From NCBI GenBank assembly GCA_017627955.1, contig JAGAFU010000032.1, forward strand, positions 1-64,000: 64,000 nt of DNA. Reading direction: 5' to 3'. The notes under the pieces are model-generated. The model saw only the letters and a program-made list of their open reading frames with translations, was not told the DNA's origin and made no database searches. Numbering within the stretch: the first letter of the stretch is position 1; each line of letters opens with the position of its first letter. Source of the DNA: Bacteroidales bacterium. Lineage in GTDB: Bacteria > Bacteroidota > Bacteroidia > Bacteroidales > UBA932. This document shows, in pieces, positions 24,710-28,537 of this stretch. Position numbers and translations under genes: made by a program.

Positions 24710-26233
24710 ATGGCAGAAGGCAAAGGGAAATACTTGATAATCGGTCTGATCGGTTTCATCATCGGGGCTTTGCTCGTGGCGGCATTCGACACCACCATGA
24801 ACAAAACCTCCTCCAACGAGTACTGCATGAGTTGCCACACTCATGAGCAGGCCGATCTCGACTGGAAGAAATCCCCGCATTATCTCAGCCACAGCGGAGT
24901 CATGACAGACTGCGCCGCCTGCCACCTTCCCCCAAAGGAGGACGGCCTCATGAAATACTATGCGGCCAAAACCAGGATCGGAGTCAGGGATCTGTGGGTG
25001 AAGATGACCAAGGATCCTTCCGAGATCGACTGGGAGTCCAAGAGGCAGCTTGAGCACGCCCGCAAGATCGTCTACAATTCATCTTGTGAGAGATGCCATG
25101 TGAACCTCTTCCCCGAGGGCATCTCCGACGACGGGATCACCGCCCACCTCCATTACGAGGAGAACGCCAAGAAACTCGGGCTGGACTGCATCAGCTGCCA
25201 CCTCGATGTCGGTCACTACATGCCCGGCTACGAGCACAAGCGCATGGAGGGCAAAGTGATTGAGGCGGACAATGGCCCGATCTACGATTCCCTCGCCACA
25301 GTCAACTCCTTCGAGGACTTCACGGAGACCGTACCGGGCACAAGGGCGGCCATAAGGATGATAGCTGTCCCTGGAGGAGAGTTCCTGATGGGAAGTCCCG
25401 ACAAGGAGCCTTTCCATTCAGACGATGAGGGCCCCCAGAAGAAGGTCAAGATCTCACCTTTCTTCATGGGCGAGGTCGAAGTCACATGGAGACAGTTCTG
25501 GGCTTTCTACAACGAGACCATGTCTGAGGGCAGGACCCCTCCGGAGAAGATATACGCCAACAACAACCGTCCGGATGTGGATGCCGTGAGCGGTCCGACT
25601 CCCCCGTTCGGATTCCCCGACCAGGGTTGGGGCATGGGCGACCGCCCGGCCATAACCATGACCCACTACGCCGCCACGACATTCTGCCAATGGCTCTCAC
25701 TTAAGACCGGGCGCCACTACCGCCTCCCCACCGAGGCCGAGTGGGAATATGCCGCCAGAGGCGGAACCCAGACACCTTATTTCTTCGAGGGCAATCCCAA
25801 GAAATTCCATTCGAGGAAGTCAAGAGGCGCCGACACTACCATGATCGGCCGCTACATAGTCTTCTCCGGCAACTCGTCCGGAAAGACCCAAGAGCCCGGC
25901 TTTGTCAAAGCCAACCCCTTCAGGCTCAAGAATATGCTCGGAAATGTCATGGAATATTGCTCCGACTGGTACGCGGAAGACGCATATTCCAAAATCAAGG
26001 ATGGGGCTCTCGACCCGAAGGGTCCAGAGAGCGGCACCGAGCACGTGGTCAGGGGTGGCAACTATTCTGATGACGCTTCCGTGCTGCGCAGCGCCTCCAG
26101 AGGCCACACCGAGCATGACAAGTGGCTCAAGACAGATCCCCAGAATCCAAAGAGCATCTGGTGGTACTCCGACATCAAAGGGGTAGGCTTCAGGGTGGTC
26201 TGTGATGTACCGGCAAACATTGACGTTAATTAA
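24710..26233 (+). CDS. NapC/NrfH-type tetraheme cytochrome fused to a SUMF1 (FGE-like) domain
   Basis: A membrane-anchored protein of 507 residues. One transmembrane helix (8-26) is followed by four c-type heme motifs, CMSCH (39-43), CAACH (68-72), CERCH (126-130) and CISCH (160-164), as in quinol-oxidising NrfH/NapC. From about residue 215 a complete formylglycine-generating-enzyme-like fold follows (PGGEFLMGS, YRLPTEAEWEYAARGG, NMLGNVMEYCSDWY, GFRVVCD). The catalytic Cys pair of true FGE is absent (HVVRGGNYSDDASVLR). So the second half is probably a binding module. It is 21 bases from a Tat-exported oxidoreductase gene, suggesting electron exchange with that protein outside the inner membrane. 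Confidence 0.88.
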   Translation: MAEGKGKYLIIGLIGFIIGALLVAAFDTTMNKTSSNEYCMSCHTHEQADLDWKKSPHYLSHSGVMTDCAACHLPPKEDGLMKYYAAKTRIGVRDLWVKMTKDPSEIDWESKRQLEHARKIVYNSSCERCHVNLFPEGISDDGITAHLHYEENAKKLGLDCISCHLDVGHYMPGYEHKRMEGKVIEADNGPIYDSLATVNSFEDFTETVPGTRAAIRMIAVPGGEFLMGSPDKEPFHSDDEGPQKKVKISPFFMGEVEVTWRQFWAFYNETMSEGRTPPEKIYANNNRPDVDAVSGPTPPFGFPDQGWGMGDRPAITMTHYAATTFCQWLSLKTGRHYRLPTEAEWEYAARGGTQTPYFFEGNPKKFHSRKSRGADTTMIGRYIVFSGNSSGKTQEPGFVKANPFRLKNMLGNVMEYCSDWYAEDAYSKIKDGALDPKGPESGTEHVVRGGNYSDDASVLRSASRGHTEHDKWLKTDPQNPKSIWWYSDIKGVGFRVVCDVPANIDVN

Positions 26234-26254
26234 ATACTTAATACTAATAACATT

Positions 26255-27607
26255 ATGAGCGATAACAAAATGGACAGAAGAGCCTTTCTCGGCGCCAGCG
26301 CCAAGATCGGTGTCGCTGGTATCGTCGGAGGTGGACTCCTCGCTGCCTGCGGCGAAAAAGAACCCAAACAAATTCCCCTAAGGCAGCCTGGCGAGTACTA
26401 CGTGCCTGAACTTCCTGACAAAGCCATTGAAGGGAAACCCCTCAAGGTAGGAGTCATCGGCTGCGGTGGCCGTGGATCAGGTGCCATCATGAACCTTCTC
26501 GACGCGGCTGACGGGATCACCGTCACAGCTCTTGGAGACACCTTCATTGACCGCCTGACAAGCCTGAAGGACAAGCTGCAAGAGAGAAATCAGGTCGTTC
26601 CCGACGAGAATTGCTTCATCGGTTTCGACGCCTACAAGAAGGTCATCGACTCGGGCGTTGACATGGTCATCTGCACGACTCCCCCGAATTTCCGTCCCGT
26701 CCACTTCCAGTATGCCACTGAAAAGGGTGTCCATTCCTTCCTCGAGAAGCCTATCGCCGTTGACGCGAAGGGCTACCGCCAGATCATGGCCACCGCCAAG
26801 CAGGCCGAAGCCAAGGGACTGAGCGTAGTCTGCGGAACCCAGCGCCATCACCAGCGTCCCTACGTCGAGGCTTTCAAAAAGATCCAGGAAGGCCTGATCG
26901 GTGAGATCACCGGAGGTAACGTCTACTGGAACGGAGGCATGCTCTGGTACAGGGAGCGCCAGAAAGGTTGGAGCGACATGGAGTGGATGATCCGCGACTG
27001 GGTCAACTGGGAGTGGCTCTCAGGCGACCACATCGTCGAGCAGCATGTCCACAACATCGACGTTTTCAACTGGATGAACGGCTACAAGCACCCCATCAAG
27101 GCCACCGGTTTCGGTAGCCGCCAGCGCAGGGTCACCGGCGACCAGTTCGACAACTTCAGCGTCGACTTCGAGTACGAGAACGGCGTCCACCTCCACAGCA
27201 TGTGCCGCCAGATCGACGGTTGCTCCAACAACGTCAGCGAAGAGGTCCACGGAACCAAGGGATATTGGAAATCCGCCGAAGAGACCATCTACGACCTCCA
27301 GGGCAATGTCCTCTGGACCTTTGACTGGGATGGCATGAGGGCCGAGTTCAAGCAGGAGGATCCCTATGTCCTTGAGCATGTTGACTGGGTCAACCATATC
27401 CGCAAGGGTACCGCCCATGTCGAGGCTGGAGAGTGCGGAATGTCCTCTCTGTGCGGAATCATGGGCCGCGAGGCCGCCTACACAGGCCAGACCGTCGAGT
27501 GGGACCAGATCAGCGCGGCTGATCTCGACCTTATGCCCGAGAAGCTTGAGATGGGCAAGATGGACATGAAACAGTACAAGGTCCACGTGCCTGGAACCGG
27601 AAAATAA
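26255..27607 (+). CDS. Tat-exported Gfo/Idh/MocA oxidoreductase lipoprotein
   Basis: A 450-residue NAD(P)-type oxidoreductase. The N-terminus has a twin-arginine motif (DRRAFLG) and a lipobox (LLAAC), so it is folded with cofactor in the cytoplasm and then exported and lipidated. Rossmann fold VGVIGCGGRGSGA, catalytic-lysine motif LEKPIAVDA and the C-terminal substrate face (HIVEQHVHNIDV) are present. Such proteins act on sugars or glycosides, for example oxidising C3. It lies between the cytochrome-SUMF1 and TIM-barrel genes, 6 bases from the latter. Confidence 0.9.
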   Translation: MSDNKMDRRAFLGASAKIGVAGIVGGGLLAACGEKEPKQIPLRQPGEYYVPELPDKAIEGKPLKVGVIGCGGRGSGAIMNLLDAADGITVTALGDTFIDRLTSLKDKLQERNQVVPDENCFIGFDAYKKVIDSGVDMVICTTPPNFRPVHFQYATEKGVHSFLEKPIAVDAKGYRQIMATAKQAEAKGLSVVCGTQRHHQRPYVEAFKKIQEGLIGEITGGNVYWNGGMLWYRERQKGWSDMEWMIRDWVNWEWLSGDHIVEQHVHNIDVFNWMNGYKHPIKATGFGSRQRRVTGDQFDNFSVDFEYENGVHLHSMCRQIDGCSNNVSEEVHGTKGYWKSAEETIYDLQGNVLWTFDWDGMRAEFKQEDPYVLEHVDWVNHIRKGTAHVEAGECGMSSLCGIMGREAAYTGQTVEWDQISAADLDLMPEKLEMGKMDMKQYKVHVPGTGK

Positions 27608-27613
27608 ACGACC

Positions 27614-28537
27614 ATGGACAGAAGATCATTTATCAAGACATCAGCGATAGGAGGGGCGGTCGTTGCCGCCTCCTCCATCATTCCCGCCTGCGCTTCGAAT
27701 GCCTCCAAGGGTGGGAACAAGGCTGCCAATGACGTTGCCCTGAACCTCTCCTTCCAGGAGGGCATCGCTCCCGGCGAGACACTTGCGGAGAAACTCGACT
27801 TCATGGAGAATCTCGGCATCGTCGGTTTCGAGCCCGGAGGCCGTGGCCTCAAAGGCCGTATCAAGGAGATCCAGGATGCCCTTAGTGGCCGTAACATCAA
27901 GGTCAGCGCGATCTGCGCCGGTTTTGACGGCTTCATCCTCGCTGAGGATCCCGCTGTCAAGAACCAGTTCGACACAACTATGCGCGAGATCATCGAAGCT
28001 GCCGGAGCCCTCGGTTCCACAGGTGTCATCATGGTCCCCGCTTTCAACGGCCAGCAGCCTTGCAAGCCCCACACAATGGAGACCCGCGACTACCTCTGCG
28101 AGGAACTTCACAAGCTCGGAGAGTTCGCGAAGAGCTGCGGCACAACCGTCATTCTCGAGCCCCTCAACAGGCGCGAATGCTTCTACATGAGGCTTGTCGC
28201 TGACGGAGCCGCTATCGCCCGCGACGCTAACAGTGAAGGAGTTAAGGTCATGGGCGACTTCTGGCACATGCAGGAGGAGACCTCTGACTACGGCGCCTTC
28301 ATGTCCGCTGGAAGCAAGTACCTGCAGCACGTCCATATCGCCAGCCGCGGCAACCGCAAGATGCCTGGCGAGGACGGTGCCGTTGACAACTACGTCGAAG
28401 GCTTCAAGGCCCTCCAGCAGATCGGCTACGACAAGTATGTCTCCTTCGAGTGCGGCTGCGGCGGCGACAGGGCTACCCTCGTCACCAACGCTGTCAACCT
28501 GCTCCGTGCCCAATGGGAAGAGGCCAGAGGATGCTGA
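27614..28537 (+). CDS. Tat-exported TIM-barrel sugar isomerase/epimerase-like lipoprotein
   Basis: A 307-residue protein of the xylose isomerase-like TIM-barrel superfamily. It starts MDRRSFIKTSAIGG with Tat motif RRSFIK and lipobox IPAC. Metal-binding residues expected for the fold are seen in ILEPLNRRE, DFWHMQEE, HVHIASRG and SFECGCGGD. Together with the upstream oxidoreductase it may epimerise, eliminate or isomerise a keto-sugar in the periplasm. The stop overlaps the start of the next gene by 7 bases. Confidence 0.88.
   Translation: MDRRSFIKTSAIGGAVVAASSIIPACASNASKGGNKAANDVALNLSFQEGIAPGETLAEKLDFMENLGIVGFEPGGRGLKGRIKEIQDALSGRNIKVSAICAGFDGFILAEDPAVKNQFDTTMREIIEAAGALGSTGVIMVPAFNGQQPCKPHTMETRDYLCEELHKLGEFAKSCGTTVILEPLNRRECFYMRLVADGAAIARDANSEGVKVMGDFWHMQEETSDYGAFMSAGSKYLQHVHIASRGNRKMPGEDGAVDNYVEGFKALQQIGYDKYVSFECGCGGDRATLVTNAVNLLRAQWEEARGC

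Follow-up and report, generated by a model that had tools for sequence, protein, structure and literature searches.

A tetraheme cytochrome-SUMF1 fusion encoded with an exported Gfo/Idh/MocA oxidoreductase in Bacteroidota: a conserved cassette with a possible role in periplasmic keto-sugar chemistry

Sugar oxidation by a Gfo/Idh/MocA enzyme is known to be paired with a second reaction at a position adjoining the keto group, as in glycoside eliminases and in YcjS/YcjR of Escherichia coli, a cytoplasmic 3-keto-glucoside dehydrogenase and 4-epimerase that act without a respiratory partner. A cassette resembling this pairing was analyzed in a stretch of 64,000 nucleotides from a Bacteroidales bacterium (assembly GCA_017627955.1, contig JAGAFU010000032.1, positions 1 to 64,000), which is referred to here as the window. 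The cassette encodes a tetraheme NapC/NirT-type cytochrome fused to a SUMF1 domain, a Gfo/Idh/MocA oxidoreductase (GFO) and a TIM-barrel protein (TIM). Comparison with related loci supports that the cytochrome-SUMF1 protein and the exported oxidoreductase form one evolutionary unit.

Two further systems come close to the cassette. One is LacABC, which is built on a GMC flavoprotein and not on a Gfo/Idh/MocA protein, and for which we know of neither a SUMF1 domain nor a NapC fusion; the other is the BT2158 pathway of Bacteroides, for which no cytochrome partner is known to us. LacABC of Caulobacter and Pedobacter is described as a membrane-bound lactose 3-dehydrogenase that oxidizes glycosides at C3 in the periplasm and is encoded near DUF1080 genes (PMC9007349), traits that the cassette would share. 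An earlier note on the window, made from its sequence alone, had called a respiratory link to keto-sugar chemistry new to its author, whereas the membrane-bound LacABC is already known. The BT2158/BT2157/BT2159 3-keto pathway is described as containing a periplasmic Gfo/Idh/MocA glycoside 3-dehydrogenase (PMC11300592), an enzyme of Bacteroidales and of the Gfo/Idh/MocA type like the cassette GFO. Unlike BT2158, the cassette GFO reaches only 18.6 bits against the cut-off of 750 of NCBIfam NF058561 (BT_2158) and falls outside that family, a true member of which is encoded elsewhere in the window. Each domain of the cassette is known, as is keto-sugar chemistry at the membrane in general. A NapC-SUMF1 fusion, the tie of a Gfo/Idh/MocA protein to a NapC-type cytochrome via SUMF1, a SUMF1-GFO-ApbE operon and the wider SUMF1-GFO-ApbE-TIM set were not found described in the open-licence literature searched (PMC).

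Architecture and conservation of the cassette

Fused loci were taken as the best 80 of 297 fusion-relative matches, with one genome scanned per species, a set that leans to close relatives; open reading frames (ORFs) come from simple calling rules, and the profiles used for neighbouring genes each drew on a small number of seeds. The GFO gene adjoins the fusion in 80/80 of these loci and in 12/12 loci of further relatives, and in 76/80 under a stricter reading-frame rule, while TIM is present in 74/74 loci having at least 2.6 kb downstream. A close-relative sample of 61 genomes (the window's own genome and relatives) contained 20 genomes with any fusion match (1e-20), 13 with full-length fusions and the rest SUMF1-only. 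Cassette-type GFO (1e-60) was found in exactly the 13 fusion genomes (Fisher 1.5e-13, inflated by relatedness), and carriers are patchy, with 8/37 genomes of the genus. It is because of the adjacency in all 80 loci and the occurrence in the same 13 genomes that fusion and GFO are regarded as one evolutionary unit. The earlier note had in part staked its coupling idea on an exported oxidoreductase lying near most fusions, which is what these loci display.

The features are listed below. Residue counts for the fusion refer to an alignment of 93 sequences (the window, the 80 loci and the 12 relatives' loci, some of these 12 on contigs shared with the 80).

24710..26233, plus strand: tetraheme NapC/NirT cytochrome-SUMF1 fusion of 507 residues, predicted to be membrane-anchored (PF03264 5.7e-29, residues 8-172; PF03781 3.1e-40, residues 216-469)
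24734..24787, plus strand: N-terminal hydrophobic helix, residues ~9-26, predicted from sequence as inner-membrane anchor
24824..24838, plus strand: heme motif 1, CMSCH, residues 39-43 (C39, C42 and H43 in 93/93 fusions)
24911..24925, plus strand: heme motif 2, CAACH, residues 68-72 (C68, C71 and H72 in 93/93)
25085..25099, plus strand: heme motif 3, CERCH, residues 126-130 (C126, C129 and H130 in 93/93)
25187..25201, plus strand: heme motif 4, CISCH, residues 160-164 (C160 in 92/93; C163 and H164 in 93/93)
25580..25609, plus strand: SUMF1 signature loop DAVSGPTPPF, residues 291-300 (D291, A292, S294, G295, P296 and T297 in at least 97% of the 93 fusions)
26135..26164, plus strand: SUMF1 signature DPQNPKSIWW, residues 476-485 (D476, P477, Q478, P480, S482, W484 and W485 identical in all of 56 sequences, fused and standalone)
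26255..27607, plus strand: Tat-lipoprotein Gfo/Idh/MocA oxidoreductase (GFO) of 450 residues, domains GFO_IDH_MocA (PF01408, 1.1e-10) and GFO_IDH_MocA_C3 (PF22725, 2.8e-8)
26348..26350, plus strand: lipobox cysteine Cys32 of the GFO (aligned Cys in 89/89 fused-system GFOs)
27614..28537, plus strand: Tat-lipoprotein TIM barrel, xylose-isomerase-like, of 307 residues (AP_endonuc_2, PF01261, 6e-30)

The fusion stop and the GFO start are separated by 21 bases and GFO and TIM by 6 bases, and in the window translations both enzymes start with a twin-arginine translocation (Tat) motif followed by a lipobox. ORFs, Pfam matches and gaps thus bear out the initial description of four CxxCH motifs and a SUMF1 fold in one polypeptide, followed by two tightly spaced Tat/lipobox genes.

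An N-terminal helix is typical of NapC/NrfH proteins. The fusion shares with these quinol dehydrogenases the helix, four hemes and PF03264 (101.5 bits, cut-off 24.1), and it weakly matches NrfH 2j7a. All four CxxCH motifs are kept in 92/93 fusions. A quinol-site lysine and distal heme ligands, which we take to be hallmarks of NapC/NirT proteins, were the basis for checking further positions: H45, H57, K87, H146 and H169 are present in 93/93 and H176 in 92/93 fusions, as candidate ligand or quinol-site positions to which no structural role is assigned. Judged from its sequence, the cytochrome looks functional. Unlike NrfH and NapC, it is fused to SUMF1 and paired with a GFO. The fusion is the sole NapC/NirT match in the window genome (~93% complete), and since NrfA has no match in this genome, a role as the NrfH of a nitrite reductase was rejected there.

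A single ResB match in the window genome exceeds the cut-off, and the CcsB-like gene adjoining ResB stays below its family cut-off (139 vs 188 bits). ResB and/or CcsA cytochrome c maturation genes were found within 5 kb downstream in 41/80 loci; ResB of locus L094 was confirmed by Pfam (L and G numbers denote individual loci and genomes). Within the genus, ResB is present in 8/8 cassette genomes vs 12/29 others (p 0.004), with genome completeness varying. CydAB (cytochrome bd) genes lie upstream in 4/80 loci (L065, L080, L081, L091), and cytochrome bd oxidase genes were also found by Pfam beside the cassette in another family (L164, 10288-12986). Some close relatives carry an ORF of ~990 residues directly upstream of the cassette (L041, 4974-7955; L170, 4652-7609; L171, 4868-7849), which in L041 contains FAD-linked oxidase and Fe-S domains (Pfam).

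The SUMF1 half matches PF03781 with 138.9 bits (cut-off 23.3) and the formylglycine-generating enzyme (FGE) 6s07 at 2.7e-25. In FGE the catalytic cysteine pair sits after a GG motif. No Cys occurs in the nine residues after GG in the window protein and 88/93 fusions, the other five having a single Cys directly after GG. This stretch is free of Cys also in 42/44 standalone SUMF1 proteins (from 44 loci in 42 genomes of a wider sample of 392 genomes of the phylum), the others having one Cys and none two. Formylglycine generation was therefore rejected (cysteine pair in 0/93 fusions and 0/44 standalone proteins), and the earlier view of a SUMF1 half lacking catalytic Cys holds. Besides this lack, its own signature loops and the tetraheme fusion set the cassette SUMF1 apart from PvdO and other FGE-fold proteins; the DAVSGPT-type loop was not seen in the generic SUMF1 proteins compared.

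For the enzymes, 127 GFOs (89 from fused and 38 from standalone systems) and 105 TIM proteins (85 and 20) were aligned. In the GFO, G69, G71, G74, K165, H266 and D269 are kept in 127/127, corresponding to the Rossmann/NAD-binding glycines, the EKP lysine and the HxxD histidine, and both Pfam matches of the window GFO are above cut-off. The loop GGHGG, associated with GH109 in a title cited in PMC10755693, is absent from the window GFO translation, and no match to a GMC or GADH3 profile (three seeds each) was found in the 80 fused loci. The aligned lipobox Cys is present in 89/89 fused-system vs 0/38 standalone-system GFOs, a loose lipobox pattern in 84/88 vs 3/38; such a restriction to fused systems is expected if the SUMF1 partner became membrane-bound. 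The closest solved relative of the TIM protein is 3kws, a putative sugar isomerase (1.5e-125), followed by the 3-keto-D-glucoside 4-epimerase 6wn6 (8.3e-22), so that the cassette, like YcjS/YcjR, combines a Gfo/Idh/MocA protein with a TIM barrel of this type. The TIM protein scores 105.2 bits for PF01261; the metal-ligand positions E182, D215 and E279, and also H218, are kept in 105/105, and position 241 is His in 82/85 fused-system and Gln in 20/20 standalone-system proteins. A keto-sugar theme would fit the nearest named solved homologues of the two enzymes, 6wn6 for TIM and, weakly, the glucuronide-3-dehydrogenase 8tdi for GFO. In Alistipes-type loci a WbuC-family cupin gene lies between GFO and TIM (L110, 11029-11523, TIGR04366; L094, 11043-11540), and a cupin profile match was found in 16/80 loci. 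L110 belongs to the culturable Alistipes sp. dk3624, whose complete chromosome carries the cassette.

The SUMF1-GFO pair, its neighbours and the ApbE link

In the 392-genome sample scoring was limited to the top candidates of each genome, which makes absences soft. A SUMF match (1e-35) was found in 47 genomes, three with fusions (G000, G405, G406) and the rest with the SUMF1 half only; G131 and G269 (L197, L198) were set aside as generic SUMF1. A same-strand GFO lies within 1.5 kb of the standalone SUMF1 in 37/44 loci. The seven without are L141, L143, L144, L151, L187 (GFO on the opposite strand), and L188 and L194 (GFO more distant). GFO (1e-60) was found in 67/392 genomes, namely in 45/47 with a SUMF match vs 22/345 without. 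A further 20 GFO loci were read, most of them chosen as top GFO matches not yet seen beside SUMF; a divergent SUMF lies beside GFO in nine (L203-L207, L210, L218, L220, L221) and ~3 kb off in L213, and none was seen in ten. The SUMF1-GFO pair is therefore broader in the phylum than the cytochrome fusion.

Since the pair exists without the cytochrome, SUMF1 would fit as a docking partner of GFO, in line with the docking module of the earlier proposal; physical docking itself is inferred. In midpoint-rooted trees the fused clade is monophyletic for both proteins, with a support of 1.0 for GFO and a weak 0.39 for SUMF. The simplest history may be that a SUMF1 partner, itself soluble, was joined once to a NapC-type cytochrome and that GFO likewise acquired a membrane anchor. 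Mirror-tree distance correlations (0.90 for 45 fused pairs, 0.57 for 36 standalone pairs) are confounded by species descent and were set aside.

The three DUF1080 (PF06439) domains noticed earlier upstream of the cassette were found, two in 21079-22374 and one in 12073-12840. DUF1080 orthologues (>60% identity) occur near 18/80 loci, all in one synteny block with M24, DUF456 and epimerase genes, and by profile DUF1080 was counted in 19/80 fused and 4/44 standalone loci. DUF1080 was rejected as a module part, being local to this block. Against this rejection, other GFO paralogues lie directly beside DUF1080-like genes (L213-L216), with SusC/SusD too in L213 and L216. A polysaccharide utilisation locus was likewise rejected, as SusC plus SusD were found near 1/92 fused and 4/44 standalone loci with profiles of limited sensitivity (2-3 seeds). 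Of the exported oxidoreductive glycan-breakdown module proposed in the earlier note, the cytochrome and the oxidoreductase stand as one evolutionary unit, and the glycan-breakdown link turns out to be local. The BT_2158-family glycoside 3-dehydrogenase gene of the window (54341-55867; 821 bits, cut-off 750) has a Tat-like start, and no CxxCH protein was found among its neighbours. From this gene and the DUF1080 genes, keto-glycoside chemistry is likely to take place in the organism independently of the cassette.

Genes for the flavin transferase ApbE lie within 6.5 kb of the standalone SUMF in 16/44 loci, 13 on the same strand (L143, L145, L148, L153, L154, L156, L158, L175-L178, L180, L184, L185, L189, L195), where 0.31 are expected from 88 ApbE matches in 173 Mb. 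All five ApbE genes scanned were PF02424, and the order SUMF-GFO-ApbE-TIM recurs in L145, L154, L175 and L185. Of the 20 further GFO loci, 12 have ApbE near GFO (L203-L207, L210-L212, L218-L221), nine of these also with SUMF. Beside fused loci ApbE was found in 0/80 and in 0/12 of the further relatives' loci; it is encoded elsewhere in the genome for 14/15 fused genomes. The linkage of ApbE to SUMF1/GFO is real, with no obvious flavinylated client protein seen in these loci. SUMF1 is not among the terms found in the main text of two ApbE surveys (PMC8238504, PMC11334425).

A possible mechanism and its alternatives

We tentatively propose, at a little short of even confidence, that the module is a membrane-tethered periplasmic keto-sugar oxidoreductase, acting on a glycoside, sugar or cyclitol and in electron exchange with the quinone pool, and that SUMF1 is the partner of GFO. 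GFO would leave the cytoplasm through Tat carrying its bound nicotinamide cofactor, become lipid-anchored and oxidize or reduce a secondary hydroxyl, most likely at C3, and the metal-dependent TIM barrel would then epimerize or eliminate beside the keto group. SUMF1 would serve as dedicated GFO partner, holding GFO at the membrane beside the tetraheme domain, which would exchange electrons with the menaquinone pool, so that electrons from sugar oxidation may reach menaquinone. For a sugar/keto-sugar couple, thermodynamics makes net oxidation, with electrons passing from sugar to quinone, the easier course. NapC-type proteins usually run from quinol to the periplasm, and the opposite direction is assumed for ammonia oxidizers. 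In favour of the proposal are the conserved hemes, the adjacency of GFO to the fusion and their occurrence in identical genomes, the nearby maturation genes, the lipobox Cys confined to fused-system GFOs, the keto-sugar enzymes among the solved homologues and the CydAB genes upstream in some loci.

Several points weigh against this proposal. Nicotinamide adenine dinucleotide (NAD) moves hydride, hemes take up electrons one at a time and an NAD radical is highly unfavourable, which makes direct NAD-heme transfer unlikely. Because of this mismatch, direct heme-nicotinamide contact, which the earlier note suggested measuring, would hardly suffice, and an intermediate carrier is missing among the identified parts; SUMF1 could close this gap if it held a flavin or a metal, and the FGE-fold protein PvdO, taken up below, offers a helpful precedent. 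For about half of the 80 loci no maturation gene was seen nearby. Cytochrome-free SUMF1-GFO pairs are common and CxxCH ORFs lie within 5 kb in just 6/44 standalone loci, so that the chemistry may not need the cytochrome. The Tat twin arginine is R-K and not R-R in 27/89 fused-system GFOs, L094 included, which renders Tat export less certain there, and the match to 8tdi, the best solved GFO relative, is weak (6e-9). Finally, some Gfo/Idh/MocA glycosidases are described as NAD-dependent and redox-neutral, needing no acceptor (PMC10755693).

Such enzymes of the same fold lend weight to an alternative that we consider possible, if rather unlikely: GFO and TIM would run a redox-neutral cycle of oxidation, epimerization or elimination and re-reduction, as in GH109/GH188 or in E. 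coli YcjS/YcjR, so that net electron flow is not needed. In a periplasm without an NAD pool, the tetraheme domain would then be an anchor that also acts in rescue, resetting the bound cofactor after escape of a keto-product. The periplasmic glycoside 3-dehydrogenase BT2158, described as working in Bacteroides (PMC11300592), the CxxCH-free neighbourhood of the BT_2158-family gene in the window and the 37/44 standalone loci in which SUMF1 and GFO pair without a fused cytochrome all agree with it. As a mere anchor, however, a domain with four hemes, conserved candidate ligands and linked maturation genes would be expensive, and cassette-type GFO (1e-60) never occurred without the fusion in the relatives searched. 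Less probable still is that SUMF1 itself is the redox enzyme, in a PvdO-like manner, with the cytochrome as electron partner and GFO and TIM preparing the substrate. PvdO is the top NCBIfam match of the fusion (96.7 bits, far under the cut-off of 500), its structure 5hha is among the solved homologues, and fused and standalone proteins share the SUMF1 signature residues without exception. Like the fusion, PvdO has the SUMF1 (FGE) fold, and it is described as a periplasmic protein on which an oxidation depends; once purified it was inactive and had no detectable cofactor, and its electron path is unresolved (PMC6206403). An enzymatic SUMF1 is at odds with the absent FGE cysteine pair, with the failure to identify a metal-ligand pattern and with the rarity of a SUMF that has no adjacent GFO on its own strand (7/44).

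The ApbE link bears on a further, doubtful alternative, in which ApbE covalently attaches flavin mononucleotide (FMN) to the D-A-x-S-G-P-T loop of SUMF1, the FMN converting the two-electron chemistry of NADH to the one-electron chemistry of heme. The SUMF1 fold would then be a new flavinylated mediator whose FMN takes hydride from GFO-bound NADH and whose tetraheme domain relays electrons to menaquinone, for which we likewise see a small chance. Flavinylation was favoured at first because of the excess of ApbE near standalone SUMF; in G062, G182 and G287 the sole ApbE match of the genome lies in the SUMF locus. The ApbE target motif is given as D-x-x-[ST]-G-A-[ST] (PMC12052999). The window loop DAVSGPT is a near match with P in place of A, lacking the strict motif; the loop spacing resembles D-x-x-[ST]-x-x-[ST], and position 7 is S/T in 44/44 standalone proteins. 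Among the labelled proteins the exact target DAISGAT was found only in the SUMF of L150 (7160-8128, minus strand), in whose locus no ApbE was seen. A strict-motif protein other than SUMF was not found in the 16 ApbE-bearing standalone loci. Most standalone loops have R-P for G-A, E replaces D in 4/44 and position 4 is without S/T in 11/44. Confidence was lowered by the loss of the motif in SUMFs beside ApbE (first D lost in L203 and L204, L at position 4 in L206 and L207) and by ApbE adjoining GFO without a SUMF nearby (L211, L212, L219); the absence of ApbE at all 80 and 12 fused loci also speaks against it. The counts in the 20 further GFO loci (SUMF in 9, ApbE in 12) cut both ways. That unrelated exported genes lie together here by chance or through lineage synteny is very improbable. 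Genes further out (M24 peptidase, DUF456, DUF1080, epimerase) do track close-relative synteny only; against chance, adjacency and co-occurrence of the cassette span several families, TIM follows in every locus with room for it and SUMF1 and GFO are paired separately elsewhere in the phylum.

Relevance for periplasmic cofactor recycling

If flavinylation were true, the cassette would be a periplasmic NAD-FMN-heme sugar dehydrogenase, a counterpart of which was not found in the literature searched. Independently of this, the ApbE gene linked to the cytochrome-free version points to a flavin step, an assignment also not found there. Apart from recycling by the substrate itself, we know of no settled route by which a nicotinamide cofactor trapped in the periplasm could be regenerated. 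Gut Bacteroidota do export Gfo/Idh/MocA enzymes, and a conserved, co-occurring cytochrome partner makes the question of cofactor recycling testable. The membrane-tethered oxidoreductase proposed here suggests a route by which gut anaerobes may move sugar electrons into or out of the quinone pool.

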